Shown here in pieces: positions 1,105-10,616 of a stretch of DNA of 10,819 nucleotides (the first letter of the stretch is position 1; the number at the start of each line of letters is the position of its first letter). The notes beneath the pieces were generated by a model that saw only the letters and a program-made list of their open reading frames with translations, searched no databases and was not told the origin of the DNA. A program made the translations under genes and the position numbers. This stretch comes from a bacterium (GTDB lineage Bacteria > SM23-31 > JAUVVT01), in the NCBI GenBank assembly GCA_030616165.1, contig JAUWXV010000123.1:1-10819 (forward strand). The letters are read 5' to 3'.

Positions 1105-2919
1105 ATGGGATTAATGAATAAAATGCGTGATAAGATGCGTATTATACTAATAATACTTGTTATTGCATTTGTCGGTATGATAGTTTTTCAGTGGGGAATG
1201 AACCTCAGAAGAAGCGGTATGGGAGGTGCACCGACAGGGGTGATTGGCAGTATTAATGGAATAGATATTTCTTATGAATATTTTTTTCAACAAATTCAAC
1301 GGGAATACCTGGAAATAAGAGAAACTACTGGAAGTGAGCCCGATGAAATGAGAATGAGACAAGCAAGGGATGATGTCTGGGAAAGAATTGTTAGTCAGAC
1401 TTTAATAGACCATGAAATCCAAAAAAATAATCTTTATGTTTCAGATGATGAAATTATTTTTATTATAAAAAATAATCCAAATAATCCCCCTGAATTCCTC
1501 AAATCAATTCCAACATTTCAAACTGACGATAAATTTGACCCACAAAAATACCAGGATGCACTTAACAATCCTAATGTTGATTGGTCGGAAATTGAAAATA
1601 TTATAAGGTTAACACAACCTTCAAGGAAAATCCAGGATATTGTCAATTCTACAGTAAGAGTAACATCACAGGAGGTCGAAAAACAACTATTTTTAGCAGA
1701 GACTAAATGTAATGCAAAGTATATCCTAAGCGAACCTGGAGATTTTATAGATGTTAGGATAAACATCCAAGGTGAAGAAATAAAAGAATACTATAACTCC
1801 CATACAGAAGATTTTCAGGAAGATGAAAAGTGTAAACTAAAATACGCATTATTCAGCATAGAGACAACCAAACAAGACACTCAAAGAATATTTCAGGAAG
1901 CCCAGACATTGATAGAAAGAATTGAATCTGGAGAAGACTTTGCCGAACTCGCAAGACAATATTCTCAAGACCCAACAGCCGAAAATGGTGGTGACCTCGG
2001 TTATTTTTCCGAGGGGGATATGGTTGAATTCTTTGAAAAAGCGACGTTTTCTGCAAAGAAGGGAGAGGTCGTAGGTCCAATAGAAACGGATTACGGATTC
2101 CACATAATTAAAGTCTTTGACAAAAAAGTGAATCGAAAAGGAGAGATTGACTCAGTAAAAGCAAGTCATATTCTCTTGAAGATAGAACCATCTTTAGAAA
2201 CTATTAATGATGTAAAATATAAAGCGGTTGACTTTGCAGAGATTGCAAAATCGATTGGATTCGAAAAAGCATTAGAAGAAGATAATATTGAAACTTTTGA
2301 GACTCCATTCTTCGAGAATACAGGCTTTATACCTGGAATAGGAATGCTTTATATTGCAACAGACTTTGCCTTCAGAGGAAATGTGGGCGACATAAGTGAG
2401 CCGATTAAAACTGAAAATGAATATTACGTGTTAAAATTAATTGAAAAACTCCCGAAAAGAACAAATCCACTGAATGAGGTTAGCGTTACAATAGAAAATA
2501 TCCTGAAAAGAGAAAAAAGTATGTCTCTTGCTGAACAAAAAGTCTCTAAAGTACACAATAATATTCTTTTGGGGAAATCTTTCGAAGAAGCCGCTGAAGA
2601 GGATTCTATGGAAATTAAGGAAACCGGTTCATTCGGTTTCTTTGATTATATTATTGATGTGGGGAATGAAACAAAATTCACAGGAATAGCCCTTAAACTA
2701 AATGAAGGTGAAGTTTCAAAACCAGTGCAGACTCCTAAGGGATGGTATTTGATAAAACTTACCGAAAAATCCCTCGCAGATACCACTAATGCCAATGATA
2801 GAAAGAACTTTATATACAGCAGCCTCCTTGATAATAAAAGACAAGTTAATTTTACTGCATGGTTAGAGAATTTGAGGGATAAAGCAAAAATAAAGGATTT
2901 CAGAGACAGATATTTTTAA
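1105..2919 (+). CDS. PpiD-like membrane-anchored peptidyl-prolyl isomerase / periplasmic chaperone
   Basis: This 604-aa protein is close in length to E. coli PpiD (about 620 aa) and has the same plan. A short basic N-terminus precedes one membrane segment (about residues 12-29), which should anchor the rest in the periplasm. A SurA/PpiD-like helical chaperone region follows (about 45-235), beginning GVIGSINGIDISYEYF. A parvulin (PpiC/rotamase) domain spans about 242-340, with the typical stretch FAELARQYSQDPTAENGGDLGYF and later GPIETDYGFHIIKV. Its first strand reads LKYALFSI where active parvulins usually have a SHIL motif, so isomerase activity may be weak. Two further parvulin-half-like segments follow at about 375-447 and 491-554. 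The likely role is folding of exported or outer-membrane proteins. AGGGG six bases before the ATG supports the start. It appears monocistronic. The general family is secure, the exact orthology to PpiD less so. Confidence 0.85.
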   Translation: MGLMNKMRDKMRIILIILVIAFVGMIVFQWGMNLRRSGMGGAPTGVIGSINGIDISYEYFFQQIQREYLEIRETTGSEPDEMRMRQARDDVWERIVSQTLIDHEIQKNNLYVSDDEIIFIIKNNPNNPPEFLKSIPTFQTDDKFDPQKYQDALNNPNVDWSEIENIIRLTQPSRKIQDIVNSTVRVTSQEVEKQLFLAETKCNAKYILSEPGDFIDVRINIQGEEIKEYYNSHTEDFQEDEKCKLKYALFSIETTKQDTQRIFQEAQTLIERIESGEDFAELARQYSQDPTAENGGDLGYFSEGDMVEFFEKATFSAKKGEVVGPIETDYGFHIIKVFDKKVNRKGEIDSVKASHILLKIEPSLETINDVKYKAVDFAEIAKSIGFEKALEEDNIETFETPFFENTGFIPGIGMLYIATDFAFRGNVGDISEPIKTENEYYVLKLIEKLPKRTNPLNEVSVTIENILKREKSMSLAEQKVSKVHNNILLGKSFEEAAEEDSMEIKETGSFGFFDYIIDVGNETKFTGIALKLNEGEVSKPVQTPKGWYLIKLTEKSLADTTNANDRKNFIYSSLLDNKRQVNFTAWLENLRDKAKIKDFRDRYF

Positions 2920-3173
2920 ATGGAGAGACAAGAATGTCTGCCCAACCAATGTCTTACAATATTATTAAAGAAATCTATTAATTTCATTGGTAATTTTATG
3001 TTTTAATTCTTCATTTAAATTTTGCTGAGCATAATGCAATGATATGATTTATTCATTATAAATTCAAATTTTATGAATAATAAAGATTAATAAAGATATC
3101 TCAAATATGTGAAAATTTACATGAAATTAGTTAATTATCACAAAAAATTAGAAAGACTTAGAATTTTTTAACT
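2920..3173. other. Convergent intergenic spacer
   Basis: This AT-rich spacer lies between the 3' ends of the PpiD-like gene and the propeller-like gene. It contains the second palindromic repeat copy near its left end and a small direct repeat, AATAAAGATTAATAAAGATA, near 3078-3097. No ORF with coding character and no strong hairpin followed by a T-run was found, so the transcription ends of both genes remain undefined. Confidence 0.5.
2926..2943. repeat. Short palindromic intergenic repeat, copy 2
   Basis: AGACAAGAATGTCTGCCC matches the sequence at 1-18 in 17 of 18 bases and in the same orientation, with the AGACA / TGTCT inverted pair intact. It starts seven bases after the PpiD-like stop codon. 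Both copies sit just past the 3' end of a gene, which would suit a stem-loop that ends or protects transcripts, although no T-run follows. A dispersed intergenic repeat is equally possible. Confidence 0.6.
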
Positions 3174-4493
3174 TTATCTCAAGACAATAAAAGTTCTTGA
3201 TTTTTTAATTTTTTCTGTTCTGAAGTTATAAAGATACATTCCATTTGCAACGTTCAAACCCTGCTCGTTTTTCCCATCCCAGGAGGTAGTGTGAATGCCG
3301 GGACTATAATAAAAATTTACCAAACTTTTTACCTTTTTCCCGATAATACTATAAATATCTATCCTGACATTTGAAGATTCCTTCAATTCAAAAACTATTG
3401 TAGTTTCGTTTACCAAAGGATTTGGTATATTTTGCAATCCAACAAAGTTTTTATCTTTAAAATCTTTACTTAAAAGGTCTGAAATTTTTTGATAAAAAAG
3501 CATATATTCAAACTTAATATACCCAATATGCCAATCAAAATTGTCATATGCCGAATACCAAATTTTCACGTTATCAGTTAATTCATCATATATAAAAGTT
3601 GAACGATAAATACACTGACTGTCCCATTTATTCTTATATATGCAGTCAATAATTGGCTTATCAAGAGCATCCCAGAATATGCCATCTTTGCTTTTTACAA
3701 AAAACAACCTTGTATATAAAGCATTCATACCAACCGGATACGCCGCAACCAGCATCCAATATTCGTTAAAAGCGGGATTATATAATACATCAATATGCCA
3801 CACGATATATCCTTTTTGGAAAAGGAATACTTTCCCTGGTGGAGTCCAATTAATTCCATCTGTTGAGCACCTCATTTCAATAAAATTTCTATTAGACTGC
3901 CACCCTTCTTCACCAGAATTCACACTCCACATTACATACTTTGAATCTTTGTAAATAATGGATGGAGATACTATTTGCACTGGTTCATATTCAAAGATTA
4001 TTCCGGGAGAACTCCAGTTAATTCCATCACTGGATTTCAAATACTTTAAACTGTACCTTTGGTATTTACGCCTCGTTATAGATTCAATATAATAAATCCA
4101 TAACTCATCAGTATTCGGATTATACAAAATATCAGGGTCAGCATTGTAACCATATTTTAATCTCTCAACAACTGGATTTGCCAGACCATTTGGAACAATC
4201 CATTTAATTCCATCATCACTGACCAAAATTGATGGATTCTCATATTTATTATTCCCATCAGGATAAGGAGTCATCGCCATCCAGTATTTATAATTATTCC
4301 AACTATCTGGAAAACAAACAACAGAGGGATGAACTACCTCACCAGAGCCATCGTATGTGGGCGTATTCAGAAATGATTCAGCATTGTTTAAATATGAGTC
4401 TCTCCCCGGATAATCCTGGGCAAATAAAATTCCAAATCCGAATAATATAAACAAACTAACAAAGAATAATTTTAACTTATAAATAGGAATCAT
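3174..4493 (-). CDS. Secreted beta-propeller-like protein with C-terminal FlgD-like / type-A sorting domain
   Basis: This 439-aa protein starts with a clear signal peptide: a lysine-containing start, a hydrophobic run at about 9-24, and likely cleavage near FAQ-D. Residues about 45-330 contain a recurring motif S-x-D-G-I-x-W at 92-98, 154-160, 210-216 and 268-274. These Asp-box-like turns are spaced about 55-60 residues apart, as blades of a propeller would be. Phrases such as NADPDILYNP and HPSVVCFPDSWNNYKYWMAM resemble GH43/GH32-type and sialidase-like propeller proteins, but I cannot assign a catalytic triad or a substrate. Residues about 351-439 form a FlgD-Ig-like or type-A sorting domain: NIPNPLVNETTIVFEL, VRIDIYSIIGKKVKSL, then SWDGKNEQGLNVANGMYLY and a closing VLR. 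Such tails direct export by the type IX system in Bacteroidota and relatives. It appears to be a single gene. No good ribosome-binding site precedes the ATG, but the signal peptide supports the start. Confidence 0.8.
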   Translation of the reverse strand: MIPIYKLKLFFVSLFILFGFGILFAQDYPGRDSYLNNAESFLNTPTYDGSGEVVHPSVVCFPDSWNNYKYWMAMTPYPDGNNKYENPSILVSDDGIKWIVPNGLANPVVERLKYGYNADPDILYNPNTDELWIYYIESITRRKYQRYSLKYLKSSDGINWSSPGIIFEYEPVQIVSPSIIYKDSKYVMWSVNSGEEGWQSNRNFIEMRCSTDGINWTPPGKVFLFQKGYIVWHIDVLYNPAFNEYWMLVAAYPVGMNALYTRLFFVKSKDGIFWDALDKPIIDCIYKNKWDSQCIYRSTFIYDELTDNVKIWYSAYDNFDWHIGYIKFEYMLFYQKISDLLSKDFKDKNFVGLQNIPNPLVNETTIVFELKESSNVRIDIYSIIGKKVKSLVNFYYSPGIHTTSWDGKNEQGLNVANGMYLYNFRTEKIKKSRTFIVLR

Positions 4494-4544
4494 TTAATAA
4501 TTTCTAAAGAGATTTTTACAGATATTTTATTTATGTTAGATATG

Positions 4545-4552
4545 CAAAGGTA
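4545..4552 (-). promoter_or_regulatory. Possible Bacteroidota-type -7 element
   Basis: On the minus strand this reads TACCTTTG, an exact fit to the Bacteroidota -7 consensus TAnnTTTG, about 52 bases before the start of the propeller-like gene. No good -33 TTTG or TTG box is seen at the usual distance, and a chance match in this AT-rich stretch is possible. Confidence 0.25.
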
Positions 4553-4655
4553 AAATAATATAAATAACTGAACCTGGATTATTCATAAATTTGTATTAAA
4601 TAAATTATATTATCAATAATAACAATAAATAAGAAAGATTTTAGTATTTTTAATC

Positions 4656-4870
4656 TGTCATTCCCGCCTGCGCGGATATTGCAGAACTATCTTTTTTGTC
4701 ATTCCGAGCAAAGCCCGAAGGGCGAGGTTGAGGAATCTCCAGCTAATTTGAGATTTCTCTCCGCCAAAGGCGGATCCGCCTTCGGAGGACACTACGTCCC
4801 CCGAGTACTCGGGGGACTTCGGTCGAAATGACACGGAGGTGTTGTGCAACAAATACCTGTGGGGGAATGA
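4656..4870. repeat. MITE-like nested inverted-repeat element
   Basis: This GC-rich block of about 215 bases sits in very AT-rich DNA. Its inner ends are imperfect inverted repeats: TGTCATTCCGAGCAAAG at 4697-4713 pairs with CTTCGGTCGAAATGACA at 4817-4833 (14 of 17). An outer pair also exists: TCATTCCC at 4658-4665 against GGGAATGA at 4863-4870. Between outer and inner arms, TTGCAGAAC (left) matches the reverse complement of GTTGTGCAA (right), so the whole arms of about 50 bases look related. Inside are further palindromes: GCCCGAAGGGC at 4713-4723, TCCGCC-AAA-GGCGGA at 4760-4774, GGCGGATCCGCC at 4769-4780 and a perfect 22-base palindrome at 4796-4817. No transposase is present. It would suit a non-autonomous mobile element or a structured repeat family. 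Target-site duplications were not identified. Confidence 0.7.
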
Positions 4871-4949
4871 GAGAGGTTATTCAGCGTTAGTAGGTTTATA
4901 TATATGATATACATAATATTGGCTATTAATTCAACAAAGTATTAGTTTG

Positions 4950-4970
4950 AAATTCCAGGCAAAGGAATTT
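4950..4970 (-). terminator. Stem-loop just after the M19 dipeptidase-like stop
   Basis: AAATTCC (4950-4956) and GGAATTT (4964-4970) form a perfect 7-bp stem with a 7-base loop, one base beyond the stop codon. It is in the right place to end the operon transcript, but no T-run follows on the minus strand and the stem is AT-rich. It may instead protect the 3' end, or mean nothing. Confidence 0.25.
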
Positions 4971-4971
4971 T

Positions 4972-6126
4972 CTATTCTGCAAGTATTTCATTCCATATTC
5001 TTATAAAATTACCGCCTAATATTAAAGAAATTTGTTCATCAGTGTAACCGTGCTTATAAAGGACTCCTATGAAATTATTCCAATGTTCATACATAGATTG
5101 AGCCTCAACTCCAGTTGGTTTCCTCGGATTTTTTGTAACACCAGGCAATTGGCCGATATATGGATTGCCCTTGTCATGTCCCAGCCAACCCACAGCAACA
5201 TGTTCTATTCCAACCAAGTTTACCATGTAGTCGATTTCTTTCACCAATAATTCATAAGGTGTTGTTTTTTCACTTATATAACGAATACCCACTAATCCTC
5301 CAGTTGATGCAATTGCTTTAACCTCCTCATCATTATGCTGCCTTTCAGTATTAATAAATGCTGTTAAATTAGTATGTGTTGAAACAATTGGTTTTGTAGT
5401 AATTTCTGCAAGATGAAAAATGCCTGTTGCTGAAAGATGCGATACTCCTATCATCATACCAATTCTGTTCATCTCTTGAACAACCTCCACACCAAATTTC
5501 GATAATTTTCCCGAGAACTTTCCTTCCCACCATCCATCAGCAAGCTGGTTTCTTCCATGGTGCGTCAACTGCATACCTCTAATACCTAATCGATAAAAAT
5601 TACGAAGTAGTGCTAATCTACGGTCGGGATGATAATCAGGTTCAGGGTCAATCTGAATTGATGCCCCACCTTCAAGGTCCAGAAAGAATTTGACTCTATT
5701 TTTATCAGGCTGGGCAGGGATATCTGCTTTATTCTTAATAATGGAAGCTTTACCATTTGTCTTTTCAATTTCAGTTAAAAGCATATCCACAACACGCATC
5801 GAACCTTCAAATAAGCGCTCATGTCCACTCCTTTCTGGCACAGACTCTCCACCAGCCGGTATGATTACAACATCAACGCCTCCCTCTAAAAGTCTCGGTA
5901 ATAAGAAGTCTTTCAGCGGCGAGTTTTGAGATTTTCGTCTTGTATCAAATCTGTCGTTAAATTCCCATATATCCCGATGACCTTCTACAATTATGTAGTC
6001 ATGGGGACTCTTATATGCTCTTGAAACCGGTGATTCTCTATTCGAAATCATTACTCCCAGCATACTCCCTCCAACAACAGAACATGACTGTGACATAAAT
6101 TCCCTACGTGTTATCTCTTTACTCAT
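4972..6126 (-). CDS. Tat-exported M19 (membrane dipeptidase-like) family protein
   Basis: This 384-aa protein begins with a twin-arginine signal (TRREFM at residues 6-11, then a hydrophobic run), so it should be exported folded. The rest fits peptidase family M19, zinc-dependent dipeptidases of the amidohydrolase superfamily. Visible ligand motifs are EGHRD at 48-52 (H50, D52), LDLEGG at 149-154 (E152), GVSHLS at 227-232 (H230) and STHTNL at 249-254 (H251). The motif GIEHVAVG at 306-313 precedes the place where the family usually has a G-x-D-F/Y-D segment with the catalytic Asp (Asp288 in human renal dipeptidase). Here the sequence runs GWLGHDKG, so that Asp is missing or shifted to D318. It is the last gene of a set with two amidohydrolase-like genes and overlaps the upstream stop codon by one base. 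The family is fairly sure. Activity and substrate are open. Confidence 0.85.
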   Translation of the reverse strand: MSKEITRREFMSQSCSVVGGSMLGVMISNRESPVSRAYKSPHDYIIVEGHRDIWEFNDRFDTRRKSQNSPLKDFLLPRLLEGGVDVVIIPAGGESVPERSGHERLFEGSMRVVDMLLTEIEKTNGKASIIKNKADIPAQPDKNRVKFFLDLEGGASIQIDPEPDYHPDRRLALLRNFYRLGIRGMQLTHHGRNQLADGWWEGKFSGKLSKFGVEVVQEMNRIGMMIGVSHLSATGIFHLAEITTKPIVSTHTNLTAFINTERQHNDEEVKAIASTGGLVGIRYISEKTTPYELLVKEIDYMVNLVGIEHVAVGWLGHDKGNPYIGQLPGVTKNPRKPTGVEAQSMYEHWNNFIGVLYKHGYTDEQISLILGGNFIRIWNEILAE

Positions 6127-7466
6127 TACTCCTCCCTCTCCCCAATCTGTTGATATTTTTCCTGATATTTGAGATATAGAGTTTTGTGTTTGTTGTTTAA
6201 ATCAATATTCCGTCCCTTGATGTAGAGTTTTTCAACCTGGGTTATGATTTCCAACGGGTCGCCGGTAGTCACTATCAAGGTAGCATCTTTACCCACCTCC
6301 AGACTTCCGACCTGGTCATCGACGCCCAGAATTTCCGCCGCATACAGGGTAACCGCTTTCAAGGCTTCATCTTTGGGTAAACCATAGGCAGAAGCCATGG
6401 CTACATGGTATGGGAGATTTCGCTCGTTGCCAGAACCAGAACCTCCAGCAATACAGAATTTTACTCCAGCCTCGTACAGGCGTGCAGGTAATTTAAACGG
6501 TTCATCATAATCGGCATCCCGACGATACGGCAGTCGCAAAATCGGGGTAACAATCACCGGAATATTCTTTCGTTTTAGAAGGTCTGCTGCACGATATGCA
6601 TCTGCCCCACCCATGAGAACCATTTTTACCTGCTCCCGGTCAGCCCATTCCACTGCTGATTTAATCTCCAATAAACTATTGGCATTCACCCAGAGAGGTA
6701 ATTCTCCACGCAGAACGGGAAGCATAGCCTCCCAGCGGACATCTATTTTATGGAACGGAACACCCTTCTTCCCTGAAGCTTCACGAGCGGCTTTATAAGC
6801 GCGTGCTTCCCGAAAGACATTTGACAATTCATCTAACTGTTCTTTTATTTGTTTTCGCTGTTCTTCTATTCTCTGAGTCAATCCAAATGGAGTTCTAATT
6901 CTCATCCTCGGCCAGTTCAGCACCATTCCCACAGGGGCTTTCATAATCATATCCTCCCATGTCCATCCATCAAGCATCAGCAGTGCTGCTTTTCCGGAAA
7001 TCAGACCGCCGGACGGCAGAGAAACGACAAGGGCTATACCATTTGCGCGAGTTACTGGAAAACGCTCAGATTCGGGATTTATCGCCACTTCTACGCGCAC
7101 ATTCGGGTTAACATTACCGGTCTCGGCAAAATCCCGAGTAGCAGAAACTGAATTAATTTCCGTCAGCCCCAGTTGTGACTTTGCCTCAATTAGACCGGGA
7201 TAAACATGTTTTCCCGTTATATCTATCTTGACTGCATCAGAAGGTATGCGTATATTGAGACCGATATCGGTGATTTTCCCCTTATCAAAAAGAATCATAC
7301 CTTTTTCAATAACTGGACTGTTAACTGGATGGATGGTTCCACCAATTAGAGCAATGGGATATTTTTGCGGCGGTGCCGGGATTTGGTCGGATGCTTTAAT
7401 AATCATTGACCAAAAAGCACAAAATGCTATTAAAAATCCCAATTTGTATATCTTTTTAATAATCAT
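6126..7466 (-). CDS. Exported amidohydrolase-like protein lacking the metal-binding residues
   Basis: This 446-aa protein has a signal peptide (hydrophobic run at about 9-23) and the frame of an imidazolonepropionase-like amidohydrolase. The N-terminal beta part GMILFDKGKITDIG is at 56-69, GKHVYPGLIEAKSQLG at 85-100, and the C-terminal GSLEVGKDATLIVTTGDP at 387-404. The fold's usual metal ligands are replaced. The HxH of PGLIDAHxH is K96-x-Q98. The strand-5 His position (LPLWVNANS, 257-264) appears as N261. The strand-8 Asp region reads KFCIAGGSGSG (336-346). A charged helical insert, possibly coiled coil, lies at about 197-230. It is therefore probably a non-catalytic relative or a partner of the neighbouring 1001-aa protein. 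GGAGGG eight bases before the ATG supports the start. The upstream gene ends 144 bases away and the next gene overlaps by one base. Confidence 0.82.
   Translation of the reverse strand: MIIKKIYKLGFLIAFCAFWSMIIKASDQIPAPPQKYPIALIGGTIHPVNSPVIEKGMILFDKGKITDIGLNIRIPSDAVKIDITGKHVYPGLIEAKSQLGLTEINSVSATRDFAETGNVNPNVRVEVAINPESERFPVTRANGIALVVSLPSGGLISGKAALLMLDGWTWEDMIMKAPVGMVLNWPRMRIRTPFGLTQRIEEQRKQIKEQLDELSNVFREARAYKAAREASGKKGVPFHKIDVRWEAMLPVLRGELPLWVNANSLLEIKSAVEWADREQVKMVLMGGADAYRAADLLKRKNIPVIVTPILRLPYRRDADYDEPFKLPARLYEAGVKFCIAGGSGSGNERNLPYHVAMASAYGLPKDEALKAVTLYAAEILGVDDQVGSLEVGKDATLIVTTGDPLEIITQVEKLYIKGRNIDLNNKHKTLYLKYQEKYQQIGEREE
6127..6136 (-). promoter_or_regulatory. Strong ribosome-binding site at the TAATG overlap
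   Basis: On the minus strand GGGAGGAG lies two bases before the ATG at 6126, inside the last codons of the 446-aa gene. The stop and the next start share one base (TAATG). This layout favours translational coupling of the two genes and supports the chosen start, which also keeps the Tat signal complete. Confidence 0.65.
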
Positions 7467-7610
7467 TTAAAATTCCCTCCGAATTTTATTCTTAAATATC
7501 AGAATGAATGAAGAATCCCTGAGATTTTTTATAAATATTACTTTTCTATATTCCGGATCCTTCAACAATGAAAACATTTCATTTTTTATATTTATGATTA
7601 TAGTCCTTTA
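7467..7610 (-). other. Spacer between the two amidohydrolase-type genes
   Basis: This 144-base AT-rich gap is longer than normal within an operon. On the minus strand it holds a TATAAT hexamer at 7597-7602 but no matching -35 box, and a small AATGAAA / TTTCATT inverted repeat. It could contain a second promoter or a processing site. Joint transcription of the three genes is therefore likely but not certain. Confidence 0.35.
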
Positions 7611-10600
7611 TTACTTTTCGCGCAGGATTTTTTGAACCAGAACTGCACGTTCTCTTGCCATCTTCTCACGGAGCTCTTTGTCTTCCTCTATATCAAAATA
7701 TTTTCGTCCATCAATCCACGTTTGCTCACAGATACTGTAAGTTGAAAGGGGTGAACCACTCCAGATAACAAAATCCGCATCTTTGCCAACTTCCAGACTA
7801 CCAACGCGATTATCAATGCACAGTTGTTTAGCAGGATTCAATGTAACAAATTTCAGGGCTTCTTCCGGCGATACATTTCCATATTTCACAGCTTTTGCTG
7901 CCTCTAAATTCATACGTCTTGCCAGTTCTGAGTTATCAGAATTGAAACTCACCAAAAGACCCTGGTCATACATAAGAGCACCGTTGTAAGGAATAGCGTC
8001 CCATACTTCATATTTGTATGCCCACCAGTCGGTGAATGTGGTAGGCATCGAACCATGTTTTTTCAACACTTCTGCAACTTTATAACCTTCAAGAATGTGG
8101 ATAAGGACATCAACTTTGAAGCCTATTTCTTCTGCAAGTCGAATCGTGGATAGAATCTCGTCTTGTCGATAGGAGTGGCAATGGACTTGTATCTTCCCAT
8201 CAAGTACATCCAGCAAGGGTTCAAGCCGTAAATCTTTACGTGGAGGGATAAGGTTTTTGTTTTTCATTTTTTGCGTATTATACTCCTCCCATTCTCTGCG
8301 GTAATCTTTCGCTGATAGAAAGGTATCACGGATGAGTTGTTCAACGCCCATTCGCGTCCGTGGATAACGAGGAGTAAATTGTCCTACCCTACTGGATTGT
8401 TTGACATTTTCACCAAGTGCGAATTTGATTCCTGGCTTTGCACCATCGAACTTCATCTCTTCAGGAAGCGCACCCCATCGCAATTTAATAGGGGAAGTCT
8501 GTCCACCTATGGGATTCGCCGAGCCATGAATCAGATATGACATAGTTAAACCGCCAGCAAGTTGACGATAGATGTTTATATCGTCACTATTTATGACATC
8601 ACCAATATGTGTTTCAGAAGTAATGGCATGTGTCCCTTCATTTACACCACCACTGATAGCAATGTGTGAGTGAGCATCGATAAGACCGGGAGTAATATGC
8701 TTACCTTCCGCATCGATTACAAGTGCGCCTTCAGGTACGTATATATTTTTACCGACTGCTACTATTTTACCTTTTTTCACCATCAAATCTGCGTTTCCGA
8801 GGATACCGTCCGGTCCACACGTCCAGATAGTGGCGTTTTTTATTAAGAGGACTTCCGGTAGTACTGGCGGTTCGGTTCTGCCAAAAGCACCTTCCGGGTA
8901 AACTACAGGGAATTCCGTCATTTGAACGGATTCTAACTTTTTAGGTTCCTGTTTTTCTTTCCAGGGTTCTTTTAATTCGGCTTGCCAGGTTAATATGCTC
9001 CCATCACCTAAAGTACCGCTGCCAGATATCCTTGTTTCTTCAACTATACCACTCATTCTTGCCATTCCAGCGAAACCTATGGAATCACCCGGAAAAACAA
9101 AAGAGAGCAACCTTCTGTCCAGAATTACTTTAGTGACCTTTATTTTCTTTTTGTTGATACTCAGATTTGCCTGAGGCTTTGCTGGCTCACCCGATATAAC
9201 AATGGAACCGCCAATAGCCTTCCCTTTTGCATCAATCTGGAGAGTCCATGTACCTCGCACATCCACTTCTGGCTGGGGAGTAATTTCATAACGTTTGCCA
9301 GCTACCCATGTCTCGAGAATTTTAGTTTTGTCAGCAAACAGGTCGCCATCAGAGATAATAAGATTTGCTATCTTCCCTGCTTCCAAAGTGCCGAGAAATT
9401 GTGACATCTTCAACCATTCAGCAGGTATAGTGGTCAACGATGCTAATGCTTTATCAGGAGACAATCCACGCTTGACAGCAGTCCGCAACTTTGAAAGAAA
9501 ATCATCTATTTTCTGCAATCTTGAAGTTGTCAATGCGAAATCGATATTGGCTTTTGCCAAACGCGATGGATTTTCCGGGGCAAAATCCCAATGCCGAAGG
9601 CCTCTAAAACTAATATCAAGTTCGCTTTCAGTCGTTGAAACATCAGGTGCTTCCGGGAAATTGAGAGGTACAATCAATTTAATGCCCGTGTTTTTTATCG
9701 CCTGCAGACGCCGATATTCATAACCAGTGCACCTCACCCATATCTCCAGACCAAACTCCCTGGAAATTTTATCTGAACGCAGTATATCAAGTTCATTTGA
9801 TAATTCCATCACTACTGGTTTACGACCCACCGCATAAGGATATAGATCAGCAAGAGAAAGATTGATTTCTGGTGCGGTCTGTCCAGGAGGCGCTTTTTTA
9901 TATGCAGTCCATGCCTGGTCATACCAGAGAGCATCAAGAAATGTCTGGCGAATAAGTGCTATACCACCCATAAGCGAACCCGGATAGCCAGCAACTCCAC
10001 GACCCGTAATGCTCCGTCCTCTACTGAACGACATAGCCTGTGCCACATCATCCGAAAATATCGCCCTGTTGGGAGAAGTATCAGTAAGAAAAGTGAGAGC
10101 ACCAATACCACGGAAAATACCATCGGGTGGAAAAGTCAAAACCATGGTAATACCGTTTTTACGGAAACTCTGGGCAGTCTTCTCATCCGGGCGAAAAAGT
10201 TTCGAAGCACGCTGTTCTGGACGCACCGCTGCATTCCAGTGCAGACCCCCTTTTGCCTCTTCGCCAGCAGTAACCTCCCGCTGTTCAATTTGGGGAATGC
10301 CGTAATTCGTAAAAAGGTCAATAAAACCAGGATATATGGTTTTTCCATTTACATCACAGATAACTGCATCTGGTGGTATAACAACATTGGTTCCAACTGA
10401 TTCAATGCGGTCATCACGGATAACCATGGTTCCATTCTGAAGAGTCCTGCCTGGGGCAATAATTATGCGGGCGTTTTTGAATGCCACCACATTTGGTGTA
10501 TTTTCATGAAGACCAATCACAGGGGCTATTTGTCCCAAACAAAATCCTGCTGCGAGCAGCAGAAAAAGCAGTATCACACTGCAATTAAATAACCGTTTTT

Positions 10601-10616
10601 GAAATAAAATTTTCAT
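7611..10616 (-). CDS. Exported double-module amidohydrolase (inactive-looking N-half, active-looking C-half)
   Basis: This 1001-aa protein is twice the usual amidohydrolase length. A signal peptide (hydrophobic run at about 12-27) suggests periplasmic location. Module 1 (about 42-445) has the amidohydrolase frame, but the metal motif is GFIDLFTNYG at 97-106, with F102 and N104 in place of HxH; it closes with LGTLEAGKIANLIISDGD (408-425). A beta-rich linker follows (about 450-550). Module 2 (about 585-975) is an imidazolonepropionase-like amidohydrolase with full ligands: LIDAHSH (H649, H651), GENVK (735-739), VHCHS (H812, H814), H840 before LEGYKVA, and NSDNS (D894), then GSLEVGKDADFVIWSGSP. 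Both modules contain LIRxTFLxA (221-229 and 761-769), evidence of internal duplication. It probably hydrolyses a cyclic amide or peptide-like substrate, which cannot be named from sequence. AAGGA seven bases before the ATG supports the start. It is first of a three-gene set. Confidence 0.88.
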   Translation of the reverse strand: MKILFQKRLFNCSVILLFLLLAAGFCLGQIAPVIGLHENTPNVVAFKNARIIIAPGRTLQNGTMVIRDDRIESVGTNVVIPPDAVICDVNGKTIYPGFIDLFTNYGIPQIEQREVTAGEEAKGGLHWNAAVRPEQRASKLFRPDEKTAQSFRKNGITMVLTFPPDGIFRGIGALTFLTDTSPNRAIFSDDVAQAMSFSRGRSITGRGVAGYPGSLMGGIALIRQTFLDALWYDQAWTAYKKAPPGQTAPEINLSLADLYPYAVGRKPVVMELSNELDILRSDKISREFGLEIWVRCTGYEYRRLQAIKNTGIKLIVPLNFPEAPDVSTTESELDISFRGLRHWDFAPENPSRLAKANIDFALTTSRLQKIDDFLSKLRTAVKRGLSPDKALASLTTIPAEWLKMSQFLGTLEAGKIANLIISDGDLFADKTKILETWVAGKRYEITPQPEVDVRGTWTLQIDAKGKAIGGSIVISGEPAKPQANLSINKKKIKVTKVILDRRLLSFVFPGDSIGFAGMARMSGIVEETRISGSGTLGDGSILTWQAELKEPWKEKQEPKKLESVQMTEFPVVYPEGAFGRTEPPVLPEVLLIKNATIWTCGPDGILGNADLMVKKGKIVAVGKNIYVPEGALVIDAEGKHITPGLIDAHSHIAISGGVNEGTHAITSETHIGDVINSDDINIYRQLAGGLTMSYLIHGSANPIGGQTSPIKLRWGALPEEMKFDGAKPGIKFALGENVKQSSRVGQFTPRYPRTRMGVEQLIRDTFLSAKDYRREWEEYNTQKMKNKNLIPPRKDLRLEPLLDVLDGKIQVHCHSYRQDEILSTIRLAEEIGFKVDVLIHILEGYKVAEVLKKHGSMPTTFTDWWAYKYEVWDAIPYNGALMYDQGLLVSFNSDNSELARRMNLEAAKAVKYGNVSPEEALKFVTLNPAKQLCIDNRVGSLEVGKDADFVIWSGSPLSTYSICEQTWIDGRKYFDIEEDKELREKMARERAVLVQKILREK

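Follow-up and report, generated by a model that had tools for sequence, protein, structure and literature searches.

A conserved pair of bacterial genes for three exported amidohydrolase barrels, one of which retains the metal ligands

The stretch of DNA analysed here, referred to as the window, comprises 10,819 nucleotides of a contig (JAUWXV010000123.1) from a bacterium of the GTDB lineage SM23-31 and carries three adjacent open reading frames on the minus strand, at 7611-10616 (1001 aa), 6126-7466 (446 aa) and 4972-6126 (384 aa). Pfam assigns two Amidohydro_1 (PF01979) matches to the 1001-aa protein, one to the 446-aa protein and a Peptidase_M19 match to the 384-aa protein, and none of the three proteins scores above the cut-off of any NCBIfam model. 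Below, N and C denote the amino- and carboxy-terminal half of the 1001-aa protein, and P denotes the 446-aa protein. As judged from the sequences, the 1001-aa and 446-aa proteins begin with hydrophobic leaders of the Sec type and the 384-aa protein with a twin-arginine leader (TRREFM). In the sequence TAATG, the stop of the P gene and the start of the M19 gene overlap, and because of this overlap the three genes look locally co-transcribed. The features of the locus are as follows.

7611..10616, minus strand: N+C protein, 1001 aa, exported, with a Sec-type signal peptide, the N barrel, a beta domain and the C barrel (open reading frame, two PF01979 stretches, AlphaFold2 model)
9276..10490, minus strand: N barrel, residues 43-447, amidohydrolase fold without metal ligands (VIA-align and ligand columns)
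8964..9254, minus strand: all-beta domain of ~100 aa, residues 455-551, between the barrels (AlphaFold2 strands, pLDDT about 85-93)
7677..8864, minus strand: C barrel, residues 585-980, the catalytic module as judged by its ligands (ligand conservation, VIA-align to 3ooq)
6126..7466, minus strand: P protein, 446 aa, exported, full-length amidohydrolase homologue without metal ligands (phmmer to 3ooq, 77 homologues)
4972..6126, minus strand: M19 dipeptidase-like protein, 384 aa, Tat-exported (Pfam PF01244, 201.6 bits)

The top Pfam match of the beta domain at residues 455-551 reaches 13.6 bits, which is under the cut-off, and shorter N modules of about 430-460 aa may be without this domain.

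Members of the amidohydrolase superfamily are recognized by a barrel with an HxH motif on strand 1, a His on strand 5, a His on strand 6 and an Asp on strand 8, and this arrangement is found in C. Alignment with relatives places its ligands at H649 and H651 (HxH), H814, H840 and D894, as a sequence-only reading of the window had proposed, and all five are present in 90 of 90 homologous C modules, a count that for HxH is partly built in, since the 80 loci used here were picked by C motifs of which one includes HxSH; the caution does not extend to the remaining ligands of C or to any count for N or P. Also invariant in C are E660, K731, E736, K868 and E870. The same reading had noted F/N and K/Q in place of HxH in the N-half and in the 446-aa protein, and both replacements hold and extend to the homologues, in which the division between C on one side and N and P on the other is well beyond what chance would give. 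In N, F102 and N104 replace HxH, and E271, C296 and S365 occupy the other three positions, with those past HxH taken from alignment numbering; among 84 N modules, 60 contain none of the five ligands, 22 contain one and two contain two, and none has HxH. In P, where K96/Q98, N263, G286 and G341 stand at the ligand positions, no ligand remains, and among 77 P modules the ligands number none in 30, one in 37 and two in 10. A single P module, that of L062, has HxH, and it holds no other of the five ligands. The strand-6 His is replaced by Gly in 75 of the 77 P modules, and E736 is likewise lost in N and P. By fold, the N-C-P set belongs to the amidohydrolase superfamily throughout: the AlphaFold2 model of N, compared by VIA-align, has the barrel with the flanking beta-sandwich, and P is homologous over its full length to a solved member. 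The metal-ligand set that defines the enzymes is missing from both (0-2 of five ligands in the 84 N and 77 P modules alike), and N and P would on these alignments be unable to act as metal hydrolases of the usual kind.

The same three modules recur as a unit across many phyla. Genomes searched with the P protein alone gave no relatives, and loci were instead collected by a genome scan with an alignment of C modules, which yielded 80 loci whose open reading frames were sorted with N, C and P profiles built from 33 modules of distant genomes. These loci span Planctomycetota, Bacteroidota, Ignavibacteria, Acidobacteriota, Verrucomicrobiota, Pseudomonadota (Idiomarina, Undibacterium) and Armatimonadota, with further hosts among KSB1, Zixibacteria, Eisenbacteria and Marinimicrobia. 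In 62 of the 80, P comes after an N+C fusion, and in 10 there is N+C without P, two of them for want of sequence; separate N, C and P genes occur in two loci, C and P are fused in two, the N match is split in one, and the remaining three begin with C because of a contig or frame cut. L041 and L045 have separate genes with the order unchanged, and fusions of C with P are represented by L046, L047, L070, L072 and L171. In 60 of 67 cases, no more than 150 bases lie between the C gene and the start of the P domain. The sequence-only reading had proposed to see in homologous gene sets whether the neighbours and the ligand replacements are conserved; the N-C-P arrangement and the loss of ligands are, and intact HxH, which that reading had named as counter-evidence, is confined in N and P to the one P module of L062. 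P is missing from the flank in 8 of the 78 loci with room for it (L079, L084, L086, L092, L093, L113, L132 and L133), and P is not strictly obligatory everywhere, unless it is encoded elsewhere in these genomes. One locus of unusual layout, L172 (G344, 1953-8999), has a frame of more than 2300 aa that starts with N and a partial C (match to residues 603-870) and then runs on into unassigned sequence.

The pairing of C with P was also seen in a census of 241 whole genomes, about one per family, in which a strong C was taken as 440 bits or more and the better of the C and P profiles was counted at each place. Strong C modules are present in 27 of the 241 genomes, and the same 27 have P; the two are adjacent in 26, the exception being G324, where they lie on different contigs. 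No other recurrent neighbour genes were found in the flanks of the 80 loci except among close relatives. The conserved unit is N-C-P alone, and its neighbours hint at no pathway from which the substrate might be guessed.

Among solved structures, 3ooq, the amidohydrolase TM0814 of Thermotoga maritima, is closest to C and to P alike. The C model matches it with a VIA-align Z of 41.5 at 36% identity, P matches it by phmmer with an E value of 7.8e-41 over residues 42-422, and the P profile does so with an E value of 2.5e-74, 3ooq being the sole structure matched at E<=1e-20. TM0814 shares the set of GEN, HxH, H, H and D with C and differs in being a single intact module with no fused pseudo-module in its chain; a literature search found no paper on it. 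The N model aligns with dihydroorotase 4bjh (VIA-align Z 22.8 over residues 41-446), and the N half has no special likeness to any one enzyme among the matches listed. AlphaFold2, supplied with 49 aligned N+C proteins, models the 1001-aa protein with a mean pLDDT of 89.1 and a pTM of 0.87, and a pTM of this height for a chain of two barrels would imply a defined packing of N on C. A natural C+P fusion, that of L072, folded in search of a C-P interface, gave a model too poor for this purpose, with a pLDDT of 64.1 and a pTM of 0.41 from a thin C-half alignment; its input (A5) was a compromise alignment, MAFFT having tended to put P rows on the C half.

Both metal-less modules are maintained. Between related species, and where dS could be estimated, dN/dS (Nei-Gojobori) is 0.04-0.10 (N), 0.04-0.08 (P) and 0.02-0.06 (C), values that place N and P under purifying selection. 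When 75 modules are put on a tree, N, C and P are each set off from all the rest by a single branch, with SH-aLRT support of 93, 99 and 83, respectively, and the intact single modules are placed by C, although in the wider tree described below part of the P rows from C+P fusions cluster separately and C is less well supported as a single group. Since the three are separate clades in the 75-module tree, the inactivations predate the spread of the set over the phyla. On this sequence evidence N and P are best described as ancient, selected pseudo-enzyme partners, not products of decay. This agrees with the sequence-only reading as far as the N, C and P barrels are concerned, with purifying selection, ancient separate clades and travel with the active module all on its side. 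Losses of the same kind are also found among single-module, TM0814-like relatives, where a tandem neighbour is short of the full site in L048, L164, L165, L167 and L168; L048 and L164 share one loss event, L167 is a partial loss, L165 combines two intact copies with a single lost one, and the events are apparently independent. A tree with these tandem rows, a quick tree for which long branches are a caveat, requires the site to switch between the intact and the lost state at least four times, at least three of them beyond the N-C-P set, and loss beside an intact copy has therefore happened repeatedly.

We hypothesize that the products of the two genes make up a single exported enzyme system with three homologous amidohydrolase barrels, of which C alone, with its metal site, would carry out the chemistry, presumably by hydrolysing an amide, peptide or similar bond. 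The N barrel, which precedes C in the same chain, and the P barrel, which follows C either in the next gene downstream or in the same chain, would be pseudo-enzymes, that is, barrels without metal at the canonical site, retained to hold C in a working assembly. They would probably also help to form the substrate cleft, as the inactive alpha subunit does for the active beta subunit in the M16 mitochondrial processing peptidase (MPP), and P is expected to bind to N-C. The gene fusions and the N-C model suggest a subunit role for N and P, and we consider it likely that C is the catalyst and that N and P are its pseudo-enzyme partners in assembly or in the substrate cleft.

Sets of an enzyme and its pseudo-enzymes are already known as a kind, of which N-C-P is a new case; no description of the N-C-P gene pair was found in a literature search, which had most subscription journals outside its reach. 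In MPP, the inactive alpha subunit takes part in building the active centre and itself binds the substrate, and in MPP and its bacterial M16B relatives, encoded by two adjacent genes or as one chain of ~1000 residues, the inactive subunit is needed for activity (PMC11266112). The likeness to N-C-P lies in the combination of an active metal subunit with an inactive homologue from adjacent or fused genes. However, fold and chemistry are unrelated, MPP has one pseudo-module where N-C-P has two, and the dependence is proven in MPP and presumed for N-C-P. Within the superfamily, ATCase activity in Pseudomonas aeruginosa depends on a pseudo-dihydroorotase (PMC7053772), which is, as N and P would be, an inactive amidohydrolase-superfamily chain required in a complex; in contrast to N and P, it serves an unrelated enzyme, is cytosolic and has no active paralogue as a partner. 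The CRMPs, or dihydropyrimidinase-related proteins, have kept the fold and lost most ligands (PMC4051505). They resemble N and P in this respect and were selected for protein-protein roles in homo- and hetero-oligomers, whereas they are animal, cytosolic and neuronal proteins and form no gene set with an active copy. By analogy, N-C-P may work like these three systems. A metal-dependent bile salt hydrolase was also considered as a relative and rejected; it is an enzyme of Desulfovibrionaceae, and inactive subunits are not mentioned for it (PMC13081902).

N and P could instead have a separate function in the same pathway as C, for example by binding or delivering a substrate or product, by sensing, or by retaining a ligand of the surface or the cell wall, and form no complex with it. 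P has nearly invariant residues of its own (D112, E115, R140 and W168) and N has kept Q224 and D228, which suggests a specific role beyond scaffolding, and the P-less flanks described above also fit independent proteins. However, most loci have N and C in one covalent chain, the model packs the two confidently, C+P fusions exist, and N, C and P are related to one another, as expected for subunits that arose from a homo-oligomer, and we regard a separate function as unlikely. Still less probable, in our judgement, is that N and P are enzymes after all, working without a metal or with other ligands. While the barrel fold is fully kept and a Glu equivalent to E660 of the C module is present in 75 of the 77 P modules, a search of the N and P alignments for a substitute cluster of invariant His or Cys residues found none, the only such residue conserved above 85% being H46 of P, which is N-terminal and lies before the barrel, and the ligand positions of N and P are filled by many different residues that form no single new constellation. 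Local decay or sequencing error in the genome of the window, an assembly of 343 contigs, can be dismissed as an explanation with near certainty, given the same losses in many phyla, in finished and unfinished genomes, in open frames and with dN/dS far below 1.

If C is the catalyst and N and P are its pseudo-enzyme partners, a more general view may be ventured, which we hold tentatively and rate at somewhat under an even chance: N-C-P would represent a widespread class of exported three-barrel hydrolases with one catalytic barrel and two metal-less paralogues as obligate subunits that build the substrate chamber, and the pairing of intact and metal-less copies, which arose several times in the wider subfamily, would mean that an enzyme which began as a homo-oligomer has an inherent need for asymmetry. 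Annotation pipelines name all these genes 'amidohydrolase', though two of the three modules are without the usual metal site. Should N and P be obligate partners, assays of single proteins may fail for that reason, and the set would offer a bacterial model, present in many phyla, of an enzyme that depends on its own dead copies; the independent losses in single-module relatives make this question of dependence open to comparison.

The M19 gene stands apart from the set. The sequence-only reading had counted four barrels in three adjacent proteins; the three adjacent open reading frames and three of the barrels stand, whereas the M19 protein lies outside the conserved set. An M19 gene occurs in 1 of the 80 flanks of N-C-P loci and is no conserved neighbour, and it was ruled out as a member; it is a local neighbour, coupled to the set here though not elsewhere. 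Nor did the suggestion that this protein lacks its catalytic Asp and is a further selected pseudo-enzyme find support. The HxD, Glu and two His residues typical of peptidase family M19 (membrane dipeptidase) are all present, and H50, D52, E152, H230 and H251 are kept in comparison with 29 homologues. Where nearly all of the 29 homologues carry the last Asp as G[ST]D, this protein reads VGWLGHD, and its D318, which may be the displaced last Asp, follows a three-residue WLG insertion. The insertion is absent from all 29, and no close M19 relatives carrying it were found in the phylum of the window, in two other phyla or on plasmids.

Elsewhere in the window, positions 3174-4493 encode a secreted 439-aa protein with a C-terminal type IX secretion sorting domain (TIGR04183, above its cut-off). 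The palindrome AGACAAGAATGTCTG occurs at 1-15 and again at 2926-2940, and the two copies flank a block with a PhzF-like and a SurA/PpiD-like gene.
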